DNA of 64,000 nucleotides from Rhizophagus irregularis (lineage: Eukaryota; Glomeromycota; Glomeromycetes; Glomerales; Glomeraceae): positions 1,798,001-1,862,000 of the forward strand of contig NC_089429.1 in NCBI RefSeq assembly GCF_026210795.1. Direction: 5' to 3'. A model generated the notes under the pieces. The model had not been told where the DNA came from. It was given only the letters and a program-made list of their open reading frames with translations, and did not search any database. A program made the translations under genes and the position numbers. Below are positions 6,728-59,979 of the stretch, piece by piece. Positions within the stretch are counted from its first letter, which is position 1. Every line of letters begins with the position of its first letter.

Positions 6728-7803
6728 AAAAGAAAGCCTAATAAAGAGAAGACCTAGGCAGAGGAGATAAACCTAAAAAAAAAGATGAAAAAAAAATAAG
6801 ATGAACACTTCCAACCCACATACTACTTAAAGGAGGACGTAAAGAAAAAGGCCTAAAAAAAGACCTAATGAAGAGAAGACCTAGACAGAGAGAGGATAAA
6901 TCTAAAAAAAAAGATGACAAAAAAAAAAAATGATAAAACACCACACTCCCAAACCCACACTCCCACGCACCACACACTCCCACGCACCACTCCCAACCCA
7001 CACTCCCTCACTCCCTCACTCCACACTCCTACACTCCCCAACCCATACTCCCAACCCATATACCTAAAGGAGGATGTAAAGAAAAAGGCCTAAAAAAAGG
7101 CCTAATGAAGAGAAGACCTAGACAGAGAGAAGATAGAACTAAAAAAAAGTTGACGAAAAAAAATTAAATAAAACACCACACTCCCAAACCCACACTCCCA
7201 CGCACCACACACTCCCACGCACCACTCCCAACCCACACTCCCTCACTCCCTCACTCCACACTCCTACACTCCCCAACCCATACTCCCAACCCATATACCT
7301 AAAGGAGGATGTAAAGAAAAAGGCCTAAAAAAAGGCCTAATGAAGAGAAGACCTAGACAGAGAGAAGATAGAACTAAAAAAAAGTTGACGAAAAAAAATT
7401 AAATAAAACACCACACTCCCAAACCCACACTCCCACACACCACTCCCACACTCCCAACCCACACTTTCAACCCACATACCTAAAGGAGGAAGAAAAGGCC
7501 TAAAAAAGACCTAATAAAGAGAAGACCTAGACAGAGAGAAGATAGTCCTAAAAAAAAAAAGATGACGAAAAAATTAAAATAAAACACCACACACCCAAAC
7601 CCACCACGCTCCCACACTCACAACACTCACAACCCACACTCCTACACTCCCAACACTCCCAACACTCCCAACCCACACTCCCACACTCCCACACTCCCAA
7701 CCCACATACCTAAAGGAGGACGCAAAGAAAAAGGCCTGAAAGAAAACCTAATGAAGAGAAGACCTAGACAGAGAGAAGATAGACCTAAAAAAAAAGATGA
7801 CAA
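6728..7803. repeat. C-rich minisatellite, five long units
   Basis: Tandem array of 180-237-bp units. The landmark AAAGGAGGA occurs at 6829, 7066, 7301, 7482 and 7712. Each full unit has a purine half (GAGAAGACCTAGACAGAGAG) and a half built of CACTCCCA-type words. Units beginning at 7066 and 7301 are almost identical at first, so recent expansion or unequal exchange is likely. The minus strand carries many GGG tracts. No gene is encoded. Confidence 0.92.
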
Positions 7804-11379: not shown

Positions 11380-11740
11380 TGGTATCACACATACTCTATC
11401 TTTTTGGTCGCATGATAATCCTTTATGACCCCCACAACTTCTTCCGGCGCAATATTATCTTGTTTTTGAGTTTTGGTTGAGGCTTCAGCCTTAACTCTCC
11501 CGGTTTTTCATCAACCGAATCTGAATCCGAGTCTAAATCCTCTCCTAATTTCCAATTGATAATCATATCCACTATCACTTCTTCAGTTAAAGGTGTAGTT
11601 TTTTTGTATTTCTTGACCGCCATATTTGCTAACTCCATGTATATTCTATCAGGAGGTGTCAGTGGCGTAGAAATATTTGCCGAATGGTCAACTGGTGTTT
11701 GCGTATTAGGTGTTTTTGTCTTCTACCTTTTACCTTCTTC
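11380..11740 (-). pseudogene. Relic of a dispersed repeat-family protein
   Basis: Minus-strand coding-like sequence in at least two frames. From 11638 down to 11423 it reads MELANMAVKKYKK... with an acidic DLDSDSDSVDE segment. After a frameshift near 11465 it continues as NIAPEEVVGVIKDYHATKKI. The second segment resembles the relic at 24970-25160 (NISPKEAVEVIKEYRVDGKI), so both probably derive from one repeated gene or element family. I do not recognise its function. Frame changes and a stop right after IEYV indicate decay. Confidence 0.45.
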
Positions 11741-11794
11741 CAAGCCCTACCATTTCTGTATATCATTTTGAACTTCTAAATGTCTGGAAAGTAG

Positions 11795-12840
11795 TCTTTT
11801 GGGTATTTCGATGGAGCAGCATGATGCTATACATGGGTGGGAGTATAGCGTGCTTACTTTGTAAGCCTGTGAGTACCAGCTTTTGCTGCAGTCTCATGGT
11901 AGGGCTGGTTGGGAACTTGGAGCGGTATAGTACTATGCGTGGGTTGGAGCATAGACGCTTACTTTTAGTAAGCTCGTGGGTACCAGTTTTTGCTGCAGTC
12001 CTGCGATAGGACCGAAGGTAAGTGCACTTTTTTTTGTTATTTTTCAGTTTTTTATTTTTTTTATGATTTTTTTTTATTTCTTCGTTATTTTTAGCTGGGT
12101 ATTTTATTGGAGCAGCATGATGCTATGCGTTGGGTGGGAGCATAGCATGCTTACTTTGTAAGCCTGTGAGTACCAGCTTTTGCTGCAGTCTCACAGTAGG
12201 GCTGGTTGGGAACTTGGAGCGGTATAGTACTATGCGAGGGTTAGAGCATAGACGCTTACTTTTAGTAAGCTCGTGGGTACCAGTTTTTGCTGCAGTCCTG
12301 CGATAGGACCGAAGGTAAGTGCACTTTTTTTTTATTTTTCGGTTTTTTTATTTTTTATTTTTTTATTTTTTTTTTTCTTCATTACATTTTTAGCTTTGGG
12401 TATTTCTTTTGGAGCAGCATGATGCTATGCGTTGGGTGGGAGCATAGTATGCTTACTTTGTAAGCCTGTGAGTACCAGCTTTTGCTGCAGTCTCGCAGTA
12501 GGGCTGCTGGACGAAAGGTAAGTGCACTTTTTTGTTATTTTCAGTTTTTCTTTTTATTTTTTTTATGATTTTTTTATTTCTTCATTATTATTAGCTTTGG
12601 GTATTTTTATTGGAGCAGCATGATACTATGCGTTGGGTGGGAGCATAGTGTGCTTATTTTGTAAGCCTGTGAGTACCAGCTATTGCTGCAGTCTCACAGT
12701 AGGGCTGCTGGACCAAAGGTAAGTGCACTTTTTGTTATTTTTCAGTTTTGCTTTTTATTTTTTTTATGATTTTTATTTCTTAGTGCGCTTCTTAGGAAGT
12801 CCCTTGTGTCAGGGCCATAGTACTAAAATATATCTGAAAA
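11795..12840 (+). ncRNA. Tandem array of exon-like cloverleaf RNA units
   Basis: Four GC-richer blocks (11795-12017, 12095-12314, 12394-12517, 12595-12718) are separated by T-rich spacers of 77, 79 and 77 nt. Each spacer begins GTAAGTGCAC and ends TTAG; a 65-nt spacer (12719-12783) leads to a last block starting TGCGCTTC. The first two blocks hold two related modules each (A then B), the last two hold one A module. Modules start at 11813, 11919, 12109, 12216, 12411 and 12612. Each can fold into a closing stem plus three hairpins: GCTATGC with GCATAGC, GCTTAC-TTT-GTAAGC, and CTGTGAG with CTCACAG capped by CAGC-TTTT-GCTG. Differences between copies preserve pairing (GCTATAC/GTATAGC in the first, ACTATGC/GCATAGT in the last). 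Block lengths (220 and 124 nt) and changes do not suit coding. Function unknown; expression unproven. Confidence 0.65.
12018..12094 (+). other. Intron-like spacer 1 of the cloverleaf array
   Basis: 77 nt, GTAAGT donor, T-rich body, TTTTTAG acceptor. Spacers at 12315-12393 and 12518-12594 share the same start and end and much of the body, so exon and spacer were duplicated together. Confidence 0.6.
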
Positions 12841-14089
12841 TAAAGATATTGAGAGATGTTATTAAGAAATTTTATTATAAATCTTGATCTTGAAAGCAAT
12901 AACATCTTAAAAAAAATATATAAATAAATACTATTTAATTATTATAATAGAAATTACAGAAATTATTTTGAAAAACTACATTATACTGTACCATTGAAAA
13001 TAATTTTCGTTATATAATATTTGAAATATGTGTAATATTGGAAATTTGATTGTGAATATTATATTATTTTTTCTTACATTCTATTAAACAAATAATCACC
13101 TATGTTAATGTGATCCCAAAATTTTCATTTTCCATAGGCGCAGTGTGATGGAAGATATTACATGATCTCCTGCTATGCTTCAAACAATTATGACTAACAA
13201 CAAGTAACTCTGTAAATCAATGTGTAGAAAAATTATTGTATCAAGACTTTAAATACATAGATGGAAACAAATTACAATAAAATCTTTGAAACAATTAGAT
13301 AAACTCTGTGAACCTTTACAATACGCGTCTAAAAATATTTTGATTTGTATTATGACATAATTTTTTTTGTTTTCAATAATATAAAAATACAATTAAATGT
13401 TTTAAACTTTTTATTGAATTTGTATTATACGTTGATACAGTATATGATAGCTTATCTGATTACATATAGTACTCATTGAAGAAAAATTCATGATTTTATT
13501 TAATAATTAAAGATCACTTTTATAATTAACGAAAATTCTAACATAATTTTTGGTCACAAAAAATTTTGTGACTTGAATTTTAATTGAGTCAGAAATCAGT
13601 ATTAATAATTTTGATTCACACGTCCTGGTTGTCAGCTTTACCTGGTTCGAAGATACCACGGTATTAATTTTTTTTTTCATTATTAAATAAAGAATAAAAT
13701 AATAAAAAATTTAGATTAAACTAACTTATAGCTAGCACCAATTCTACTATCCGTTTCTATATGTCCAACCCTATTAAACAACCGTAAATGGAAAGTTCAG
13801 GCTAACTTTATGGCATTAACCTTACACGTAATAAAGCAGTAAGCTAAGATTCCGAATCGATAGACTCCACAAAATCCGAAAAATGGCAATACTAAGACAA
13901 GTCTCGGGTTATTGAACGCTGCATTCGAAGACACGTAAAAAATTGATAATTCAATTCTTTAAATTTTAGTGGACGTAAAACATGGAATAAAATATTTAAA
14001 CCTGATGATTTCAATAGAATAAATAAATCCTGTTTAACCAATTATCTGTTAATGACATTATATATTTATATCGTATTTAAAATTGGTTA
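12841..14089. other. Gene-less AT-rich region
   Basis: Nothing supported. A GGTTCGA word near 13650 resembles a tRNA T-loop, but no acceptor or anticodon stem can be drawn around it. Confidence 0.55.
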
Positions 14090-15397: not shown

Positions 15398-15805
15398 ATG
15401 GATGGTATCCGATCTCGACAATCCAAAATCTCGGCAATCAAAATTCCGACAATCCAAAACCTGACAAGTCATTATATCGTTCAAATGATTTTCAACAAAG
15501 CGATCAAAAGTTGGCAAGAAATTAAGTGGCATCATCTTCATCGCCTTGGAAACTCTTTTGATCTAATCTATACTTGCAACAATTTTTATATTTCAAAAGT
15601 GGAATGGGTTTTAAGAGCCTTTGAAAGTTCATTAAGTGTATTTATTTCATTAGGAATTGATATCGGAGAATCAATATTTAATTTACATAATTTCAAAATA
15701 TCTCTTTCTTGTCTAATATTATTAATTAAAGAACTAGCTTTACCCATTCTTCAGGCGACGATCTCATTATACCGTATCTTGTTAATCAACTACTTTAATT
15801 CGTGA
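15398..15805 (+). CDS. Hypothetical open frame, 135 aa
   Basis: Opens with ATG and runs 135 codons without similarity I recognise. The first codons lie in a short tandem repeat (CGACAATCCAAAA words, about 15415-15465). The rest is hydrophobic to mixed (KSWQEIKWHHLHRLGNSFDL, then several Leu/Ile-rich segments). The opposite strand has a competing ATG frame from 15750 to 15588, MGKASSLINNIRQERDILKL..., 53 aa, with codon use more like local genes. At most one of the two is likely to be real. No TATA box or introns support either. Confidence 0.2.
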   Translation: MDGIRSRQSKISAIKIPTIQNLTSHYIVQMIFNKAIKSWQEIKWHHLHRLGNSFDLIYTCNNFYISKVEWVLRAFESSLSVFISLGIDIGESIFNLHNFKISLSCLILLIKELALPILQATISLYRILLINYFNS

Positions 15806-59671: not shown

Positions 59672-59979
59672 TCATTTCCGACAAAAAGGAGGACACTTCC
59701 AAGCTTGAAAAATAAATTATTATATTTTTAGAAAAAGGAAAAGAAAAACAAAATTAAACAGTAATAAAATAATGAGTTTAATTATTTACCTTCAGGGTTC
59801 GGTTCAGGGTCCGGTAGAGCTTGAAAAAATAAATTATTATATTTTTAAAAAAAGGAAAAGAGTAATAAAACAGTAATAAAATAATAAGTTTTATTTGATT
59901 ATTTACCTTCAGAAACCGACGCTAGGGTTGAAATGATTACGACCACGAAGATACTAGTAAAAAGGGCTTTGACATTCAT
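59672..59979 (-). CDS. Secreted alpha-factor-like peptide precursor (44 aa, three exons)
   Basis: Exons 59979-59907, 59819-59790 and 59703-59672; both introns are phase 1 with GTAAAT donors and TTTTTCAAG/TTTTCAAG acceptors. Exon 1 encodes a signal peptide starting MNVKALFTSIFVVVIIS (residues 1-20 or so). Exon 2 is exactly 30 nt. The spliced protein continues EALPDPEPNPEAWKCPPFCRK and stop. EA-LP-DP-EP-NP-EA is an unbroken run of X-Ala/X-Pro dipeptides, the substrate of Ste13/DPP-IV-type aminopeptidases that trim fungal alpha-pheromones. WKCPPFC is a Trp-led core with two Cys able to form a small disulfide ring, as in W-C...C pheromones of filamentous ascomycetes. RK could be removed by a carboxypeptidase. 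Pheromone or symbiotic-signal roles are inference. The two introns are nearly identical, so the exon was duplicated. Confidence 0.75.

Follow-up and report, generated by a model that had tools for sequence, protein, structure and literature searches.

A dispersed family of putative multidomain, spliced non-coding RNA genes in Rhizophagus irregularis

What kind of gene, if any, consists of several copies of one cloverleaf-like RNA fold set in blocks that are parted by what look like introns? The question is raised by a locus in a 64,000-nucleotide stretch of the Rhizophagus irregularis genome (contig NC_089429.1, positions 1,798,001 to 1,862,000; hereafter the window), for which an earlier note had proposed a multidomain spliced non-coding RNA. 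All six of the related modules that it described in spaced blocks were recovered where it had placed them, both in the sequence and with a covariance model, and the matched stem variants that it quoted are present (Table 1). The A modules match this A-type model by construction and the B modules do not, and apart from the six modules the 64-kb window holds no further match at E up to 1. Folded singly, each of the six (6/6) gives a centroid with the proposed closing stem and three hairpins. Their energies exceed those of shuffled sequences modestly (z from -1.48 to -2.61), and the modest z-scores of the modules count against the explanation that we favour below.

Table 1. Modules and spacers of the array locus, in positions of the window. 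A slash within a spacer sequence marks a block border.
Feature	Position	Strand	Sequence or structure	Basis
Module A1	11808..11912	+	CAGC/GCTG closing stem, three hairpins, hairpin 1 GCTATAC/GTATAGC	A-type covariance model, 124.4 bits; junction fold when folded alone
Module B1	11914..12019	+	CGGT/ACCG closing stem, hairpin 3 TCGTGGG/CCTGCGA	A-type covariance model, 89.2 bits; fold
Intron-like spacer 1, 77 nt	12018..12094	+	GAAG/GTAAGT ... TTTTTAG/C	Sequence
Module A2	12104..12209	+		A-type covariance model, 131.2 bits; folding z -2.61
Module B2	12211..12316	+		A-type covariance model, 86 bits; fold
Intron-like spacer 2, 79 nt	12315..12393	+		Sequence
Module A3	12406..12511	+	Hairpin 1 GCTATGC/GCATAGT (G-U)	A-type covariance model, 120.7 bits; fold
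Intron-like spacer 3, 77 nt	12518..12594	+		Sequence
Module A4	12607..12712	+	Hairpin 1 ACTATGC/GCATAGT (compensated)	A-type covariance model, 121.2 bits; fold
Intron-like spacer 4, 65 nt	12719..12783	+		Sequence
Module C, 3' half only	12784..12823 (3' end approximate)	+	Hairpins 2 and 3, 3' strand of closing stem	

The architecture of the window locus is AB/AB/A/A/c (slashes standing for spacers), that is, six modules of about 95 nt followed by a broken seventh of a third type, C. Other loci supply 44 nearly complete C modules to one alignment. Against that reference, the profile match in the window covers only positions 49-84 of the 85 of C (L001:2487-2522), and both hairpin 1 and the closing stem's 5' strand are absent. 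Having lost this 5' half of C, the window copy is a damaged member of the family, the sole array of 14 in which C is cut. Upstream of the array, in a stretch that is common to other array loci, a 99-codon open frame lies on the minus strand at 11423-11722. A carrier gene was considered and set aside, as neither this frame nor one at 15398-15805 on the plus strand has a match in Pfam. Farther away in the window are a minisatellite at 6819-7794, with a 235-nt unit and CCACACTC subrepeats, and a tandem repeat of a 117-nt unit in 1.8 copies at 59702-59912.

Searches of the genome (146.7 Mb in 32 contigs, with the window on contig C1) recovered a dispersed family that includes modules outside the window; this dispersal, and the third module type at the ends of copies, go beyond what had been described. 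A DNA search with the window locus gave at least 87 matches (40 of 82 first-look candidates were scored). The motif of hairpins 2 and 3, at up to 2 mismatches, occurs at 165 genome sites, 100 of them among the matches listed, against a single site for the reversed pattern, which argues that the modules are not chance. A motif of the terminal module, at up to 3 mismatches, occurs at 49 sites on 19 contigs with none for its control; of these sites at least 3, each with 3 mismatches, are not among the loci compared and may be non-members. On these counts the family would number about fifty gene copies, and our sample holds 53 loci.

The commonest architecture, found at 26 of the 53 loci, is a single A-B-C unit of about 300 nt that has no spacers. 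Arrays make up 14 of the 53 (L001-L014) and follow the order (AB/)n(A/)n AC, and the remaining 13 are extended, doubled, partial or worn. C stands last in all 14 arrays and in every A-B-C unit, and in the doubled locus L033 (ABC/ABC) the first C is internal; the number of A modules per locus runs from one to nine. Since the commonest member is the unspaced A-B-C unit, the spaced array that raised the question is probably a derived form. The three types have a common plan of closing stem and three hairpins, and C appears to be related to A and B because the A model recognises C modules (E values between 8e-7 and 5e-5): in a first set all four loci with an intact C gave such a match, and in a second set five of six did (all but L044). 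Two identical chimeric modules in one array (L008:1313-1426 and L008:1617-1730) resemble C in their 5' half and B in their 3' half, and their closing stem is altered on both sides (CGGC/GCCG); module types would thus have recombined without loss of the fold. In L020, L026 and L034, the 450 nt upstream of A are T-rich, with many TTTTTAG and with pieces resembling degenerate B and C, which are perhaps remnants of older exons.

Is the fold itself maintained? Pairing is kept in 98.9% of 1411 paired cells for B (53 distinct rows), 98.9% of 2569 for A (86 rows) and 97.9% of 920 for C (42 rows), against 15.8-47.6% in slid controls. Pairs changed on both sides number 6 of 27 in B, 6 of 30 in A and 2 of 22 in C. 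The compensatory change goes beyond shuffled and slid controls for A, for B and across types, which bears out the covariation that had been claimed, and it is weak for C alone, where the count of both-sided pairs was reached by 33 of 500 shuffles and the number of pair types by 126 of 500. For A and B, RNAalifold arrived at these main stems with no structure as input, and for C it recovered the three hairpins with a different closing stem. In a cross-type alignment of 37 distinct rows from eight sources, which was fitted to the model and leans in its favour, 14 of 30 pairs have changed on both sides and 106 cells are both-sided where shuffles average 32.2. Pair types in this alignment are no more numerous than in shuffles (320/500). 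Between types the closing stem passes from A-U to G-C (20 versus 17 rows) and from C-G to U-A (25 versus 12), and hairpin 3 from C-G to U-A (17 versus 17).

Trees built from unpaired columns tell how pairs changed: 67 of 82 changes in B and 108 of 133 in A end in a standard pair, with 48 of 62 and 74 of 100 on trees from all columns, and transitions alone would, by reasoning, be expected to preserve about half of the pairs. G-U cells far outnumber A-C cells on the plus strand (124 versus 11 in B, 157 versus 13 in A, 109 versus 11 in C), and since the wobbles are G-U and not A-C, the RNA should be that of the plus strand. As judged from these comparisons, the fold is under selection, and on the plus strand. 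Some results tell against the favoured explanation: when whole A-B-C units were folded, none of four gave three modules, because the modules cross-pair, and of ten modules folded singly three (L038 A, L038 B and L034 C) take another shape. The 5' leader pairs with the 3' end no better than shuffled sequence does (0.284 versus 0.281, 37 loci).

The four spacers of the window start with GTAAGTGCAC and end in TTAG, and the junctions proposed for them (12017-12095, 12314-12394, 12517-12595 and 12718-12784) coincide exactly with the borders of GTAAGT...TTAG spacers. Across the family, 15 loci contributed 47 spacers. In each of them an exon end in G is followed at once by GT, which reads GTAAGT in 38, in a donor search that required GT.A near the block end; AG was recognised in 45 of the 47, in 43 as TTAG, and lengths run from 56 to 85 nt. 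The 47 exclude two of 49 gaps, at L025 (41 nt) and L028 (37 nt). The spacers thus have spliceosomal GT..AG borders with donor and acceptor consensus, and part of their likeness comes from the youth of the arrays as duplicates. A C module that precedes another block ends in CCGAAG/GTAATT (L033) and not in the usual CCGTA, an ending that the splice donor would demand and the fold would not; the C of L015 ends in the same way with no recognised block following. We infer that the spacers are spliceosomal introns and are removed from the RNA.

If these loci are transcribed, what would read them, and would the product be translated? Stops occur in all six frames of the family cores (83-173 per frame over 29 cores), and core lengths cover all three classes modulo 3. 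A protein-coding gene on either strand was accordingly discarded, there being no open conserved frame in the 29 cores; the earlier note had held that coding frames are not kept and had named a conserved frame as one result that would speak against its reading. Runs of 5-8 T inside 26 of 29 A-B-C cores disfavour transcription by Pol III, and a Pol III gene was on this ground ruled out from the sequence. An snRNA-type gene was likewise ruled out: the three U1 genes of the same genome (L059-L061) have CCCATAATTT upstream and GCGGGTT downstream, and each of these elements is absent from all 44 family loci searched. U1 also has a four-way junction, and its genes are likewise multi-copy structured RNA genes, from which the family differs in lacking the U1 flanking elements. 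For U2 (L054-L058), six matches pass the cut-off, five of them on contig C3 and four of these five within 8 kb.

TGASTCA occurs 135-391 nt upstream of A in 13 of the 44 loci and downstream in one of them, and shuffled sequences average 1.66 such loci with a maximum of 5. The upstream sites are of ATGASTCAT type and belong to L012, L014, L016, L018, L019, L030, L032, L035, L036, L038, L039, L044 and L047. A second word, CACGTGAT, lies upstream in 8 of 44 loci and downstream in 2 of 44, with 0.14 in shuffles. Both belong to a minority of loci, spread over 7 of 13 homology clusters for TGASTCA and 4 of 13 for CACGTGAT, and in that part of the family they look like candidate Pol II promoter sites. 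Downstream AATAAA is uninformative, its antisense word being equally common (39/47 each).

Duplicated loci allow the cores to be compared with their surroundings. Copies with common flanks are segmental duplicates that share hundreds to thousands of flank bases, and 20 pairs, some with loci in common, were selected from among them; L011/L045 was left out, its differing architecture having misaligned the core (59.1%), and L001/L008 and L006/L009, which differ in module number, were retained. In the 19 remaining pairs, core identity is 88-99% with a median of 96.4%, against flank medians of 80.5% upstream and 78.3% downstream, which were taken from alignable stretches only and so favour the flanks. 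The exon core exceeds the upstream flank in 18 of 19 pairs and the downstream flank in 17 of 19, as in L034/L037 (core 96.3%, flanks 77.8 and 76.8%) and L016/L018 (93.6%, 70.5 and 68.3%); the exceptions, with a flank as conserved as the core, are L009/L010 on both sides and L004/L005 downstream. Within L013/L014, exons are 92.3% identical and introns 71.4%. Stem changes private to one locus preserve the pair in 23 of 57 cases; for stem variants that at least five loci share, the figure is 16.4 of 17. Broken pairs are concentrated in a few worn copies. Private stem changes may be near-neutral, with part of the copies decaying or selection acting on some only; our reading of this pattern is a birth-and-death turnover of gene copies on which selection has acted over the long term, and gene conversion may contribute to the conservation of the cores.

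The same comparisons bear on whether the family might be a non-autonomous mobile element, SINE-like or transposon-borne, with an RNA fold selected for its own copying and most copies passive. SINE-type elements are likewise short, dispersed, structured and non-coding, Alu is dimeric and the A-B organisation recalls it, and about fifty dispersed copies on 19 contigs, with private stem changes that look near-neutral, would suit such an element. The family departs from SINEs, however, in its intron-like spacers and in its internal T-runs, which oppose Pol III; close copies, moreover, have common flanks, that is, they arose by segmental duplication, and within these duplications the flanks have diverged more than the core. 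Flanking direct repeats average 5.14 against 4.87 in the control (29 loci), so target-site repeats do not exceed the control, in a test that is weak because the element ends are not sharp. We consider a mobile element unlikely. A curated study of R. irregularis repeats names new SINE families that could include this one (PMC11075540), and the family might sit in the repeat library under another label.

If the modules were instead a cis-acting element of protein-coding genes, a UTR or intron structure of riboswitch-like kind, then they would not form a gene of their own. Introns of spliceosomal type would be at home in such genes, a donor-like GTAATT follows C in L015, and at some loci A is closely preceded by a GTAAGT that resembles a donor, with a TTTTTAG resembling an acceptor downstream, an arrangement in which A-B-C could be intronic. 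Set against this, the 44 loci fall in thirteen upstream homology clusters, every frame of the core is stopped, and at one single-unit locus (L067) frames of at least 110 codons end about 2.8 kb before the core and begin about 1.3 kb after it, which together make a cis-acting role quite improbable. The numerous hairpins at numerous loci could in principle be cut and loaded for gene silencing, but the helices are only 4-9 bp, too short for usual Dicer substrates, and a small-RNA precursor is very improbable. That the window locus is a plain, functionless tandem repeat, as its array form might suggest, is scarcely credible given the strand-specific compensatory changes, cores that change more slowly than flanks, and single A-B-C units that are commoner (26/53) than arrays (14/53).

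Does the family belong to anything already described? No Rfam 15 family matches 11600-13000 at E up to 5 or reaches the gathering threshold in the whole window, in keeping with the earlier statement that no such RNA family is known, and ARAGORN found no tRNA gene in 11500-13000. Bacterial or viral relatives were sought and discounted: a 19-base pattern occurs 0 times in viral contigs and 3 times in genome contigs, and the covariance model recognises none of these at E up to 1. A text search of the literature, with supplements and preprints outside its scope, found no description of this RNA among the best matches, and a 10-base piece of a module searched together with Rhizophagus had no match. 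Structured ncRNA motifs of fungi likewise have conserved folds and a function that is unknown or partly known, and the main texts of two surveys contain no words beginning with Rhizophagus, Glomer or Mucoro (PMC5640933; PMC8216456); the second lists five query genomes there, four of them named as ascomycetes. The RNA gene family is apparently undescribed.

The explanation that we consider probable is a gene family for a structured non-coding RNA, transcribed by Pol II and enlarged by duplication of domain-bearing exons. A multidomain spliced non-coding RNA, as first proposed, is the best-supported reading, upheld by the structure counts with their controls, the strand, the frames, the junctions of the 47 spacers, Rfam, and the rates of core and flank inside the same duplications. 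The fold with its strand and conservation, the order of the domains and the canonical splice sites can be read from the sequence; that the family is transcribed and spliced we infer from them. RNA polymerase II would read the genes from the plus strand, and the basic product would be one RNA of about 300 nt with three four-way-junction domains, A-B-C. Some loci would have grown by tandem duplication of blocks carrying one (A) or two (A-B) domains, parted by T-rich spliceosomal introns of about 77 nt, and splicing would yield RNAs such as ABABAC, or AB-A(7)-AC with seven inner A blocks, in which C would act as a 3' cap.

A protein may recognise the junction or its conserved loops. If each domain binds one protein, then the number of A and B domains would set the valency of a scaffold or sponge, which we offer tentatively as one possible function. 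It would suit a fixed succession of three related junction domains of which the inner ones have been multiplied to varying extents. The repeats of Xist-type lncRNAs bind proteins. Xist repeats and Firre are described as long RNAs with tandemly repeated working modules (PMC8786293, PMC6316617, PMC4820808). The modules of this fungal family, in contrast, form compact, covarying four-way junctions; every block occupies an exon-like segment to itself, and the gene is present in about fifty copies. The likeness is one of working principle with no claim of homology.

We put forward with more doubt that these loci may represent a new eukaryotic class of RNA gene, a combinatorial one with self-folding domains on exons of their own, A first, A and B inside and C last, in which exon duplication, and possibly alternative splicing as well, would determine the valency, and which would have a trans-acting task in an obligate plant symbiont. 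About fifty loci, in single-unit and array forms and with natural compensatory variants, provide a ready test set. If they are transcribed and spliced, then a model plant symbiont would have an undescribed RNA gene family, and exon duplication would assemble RNA machines one domain at a time, as happens with proteins.
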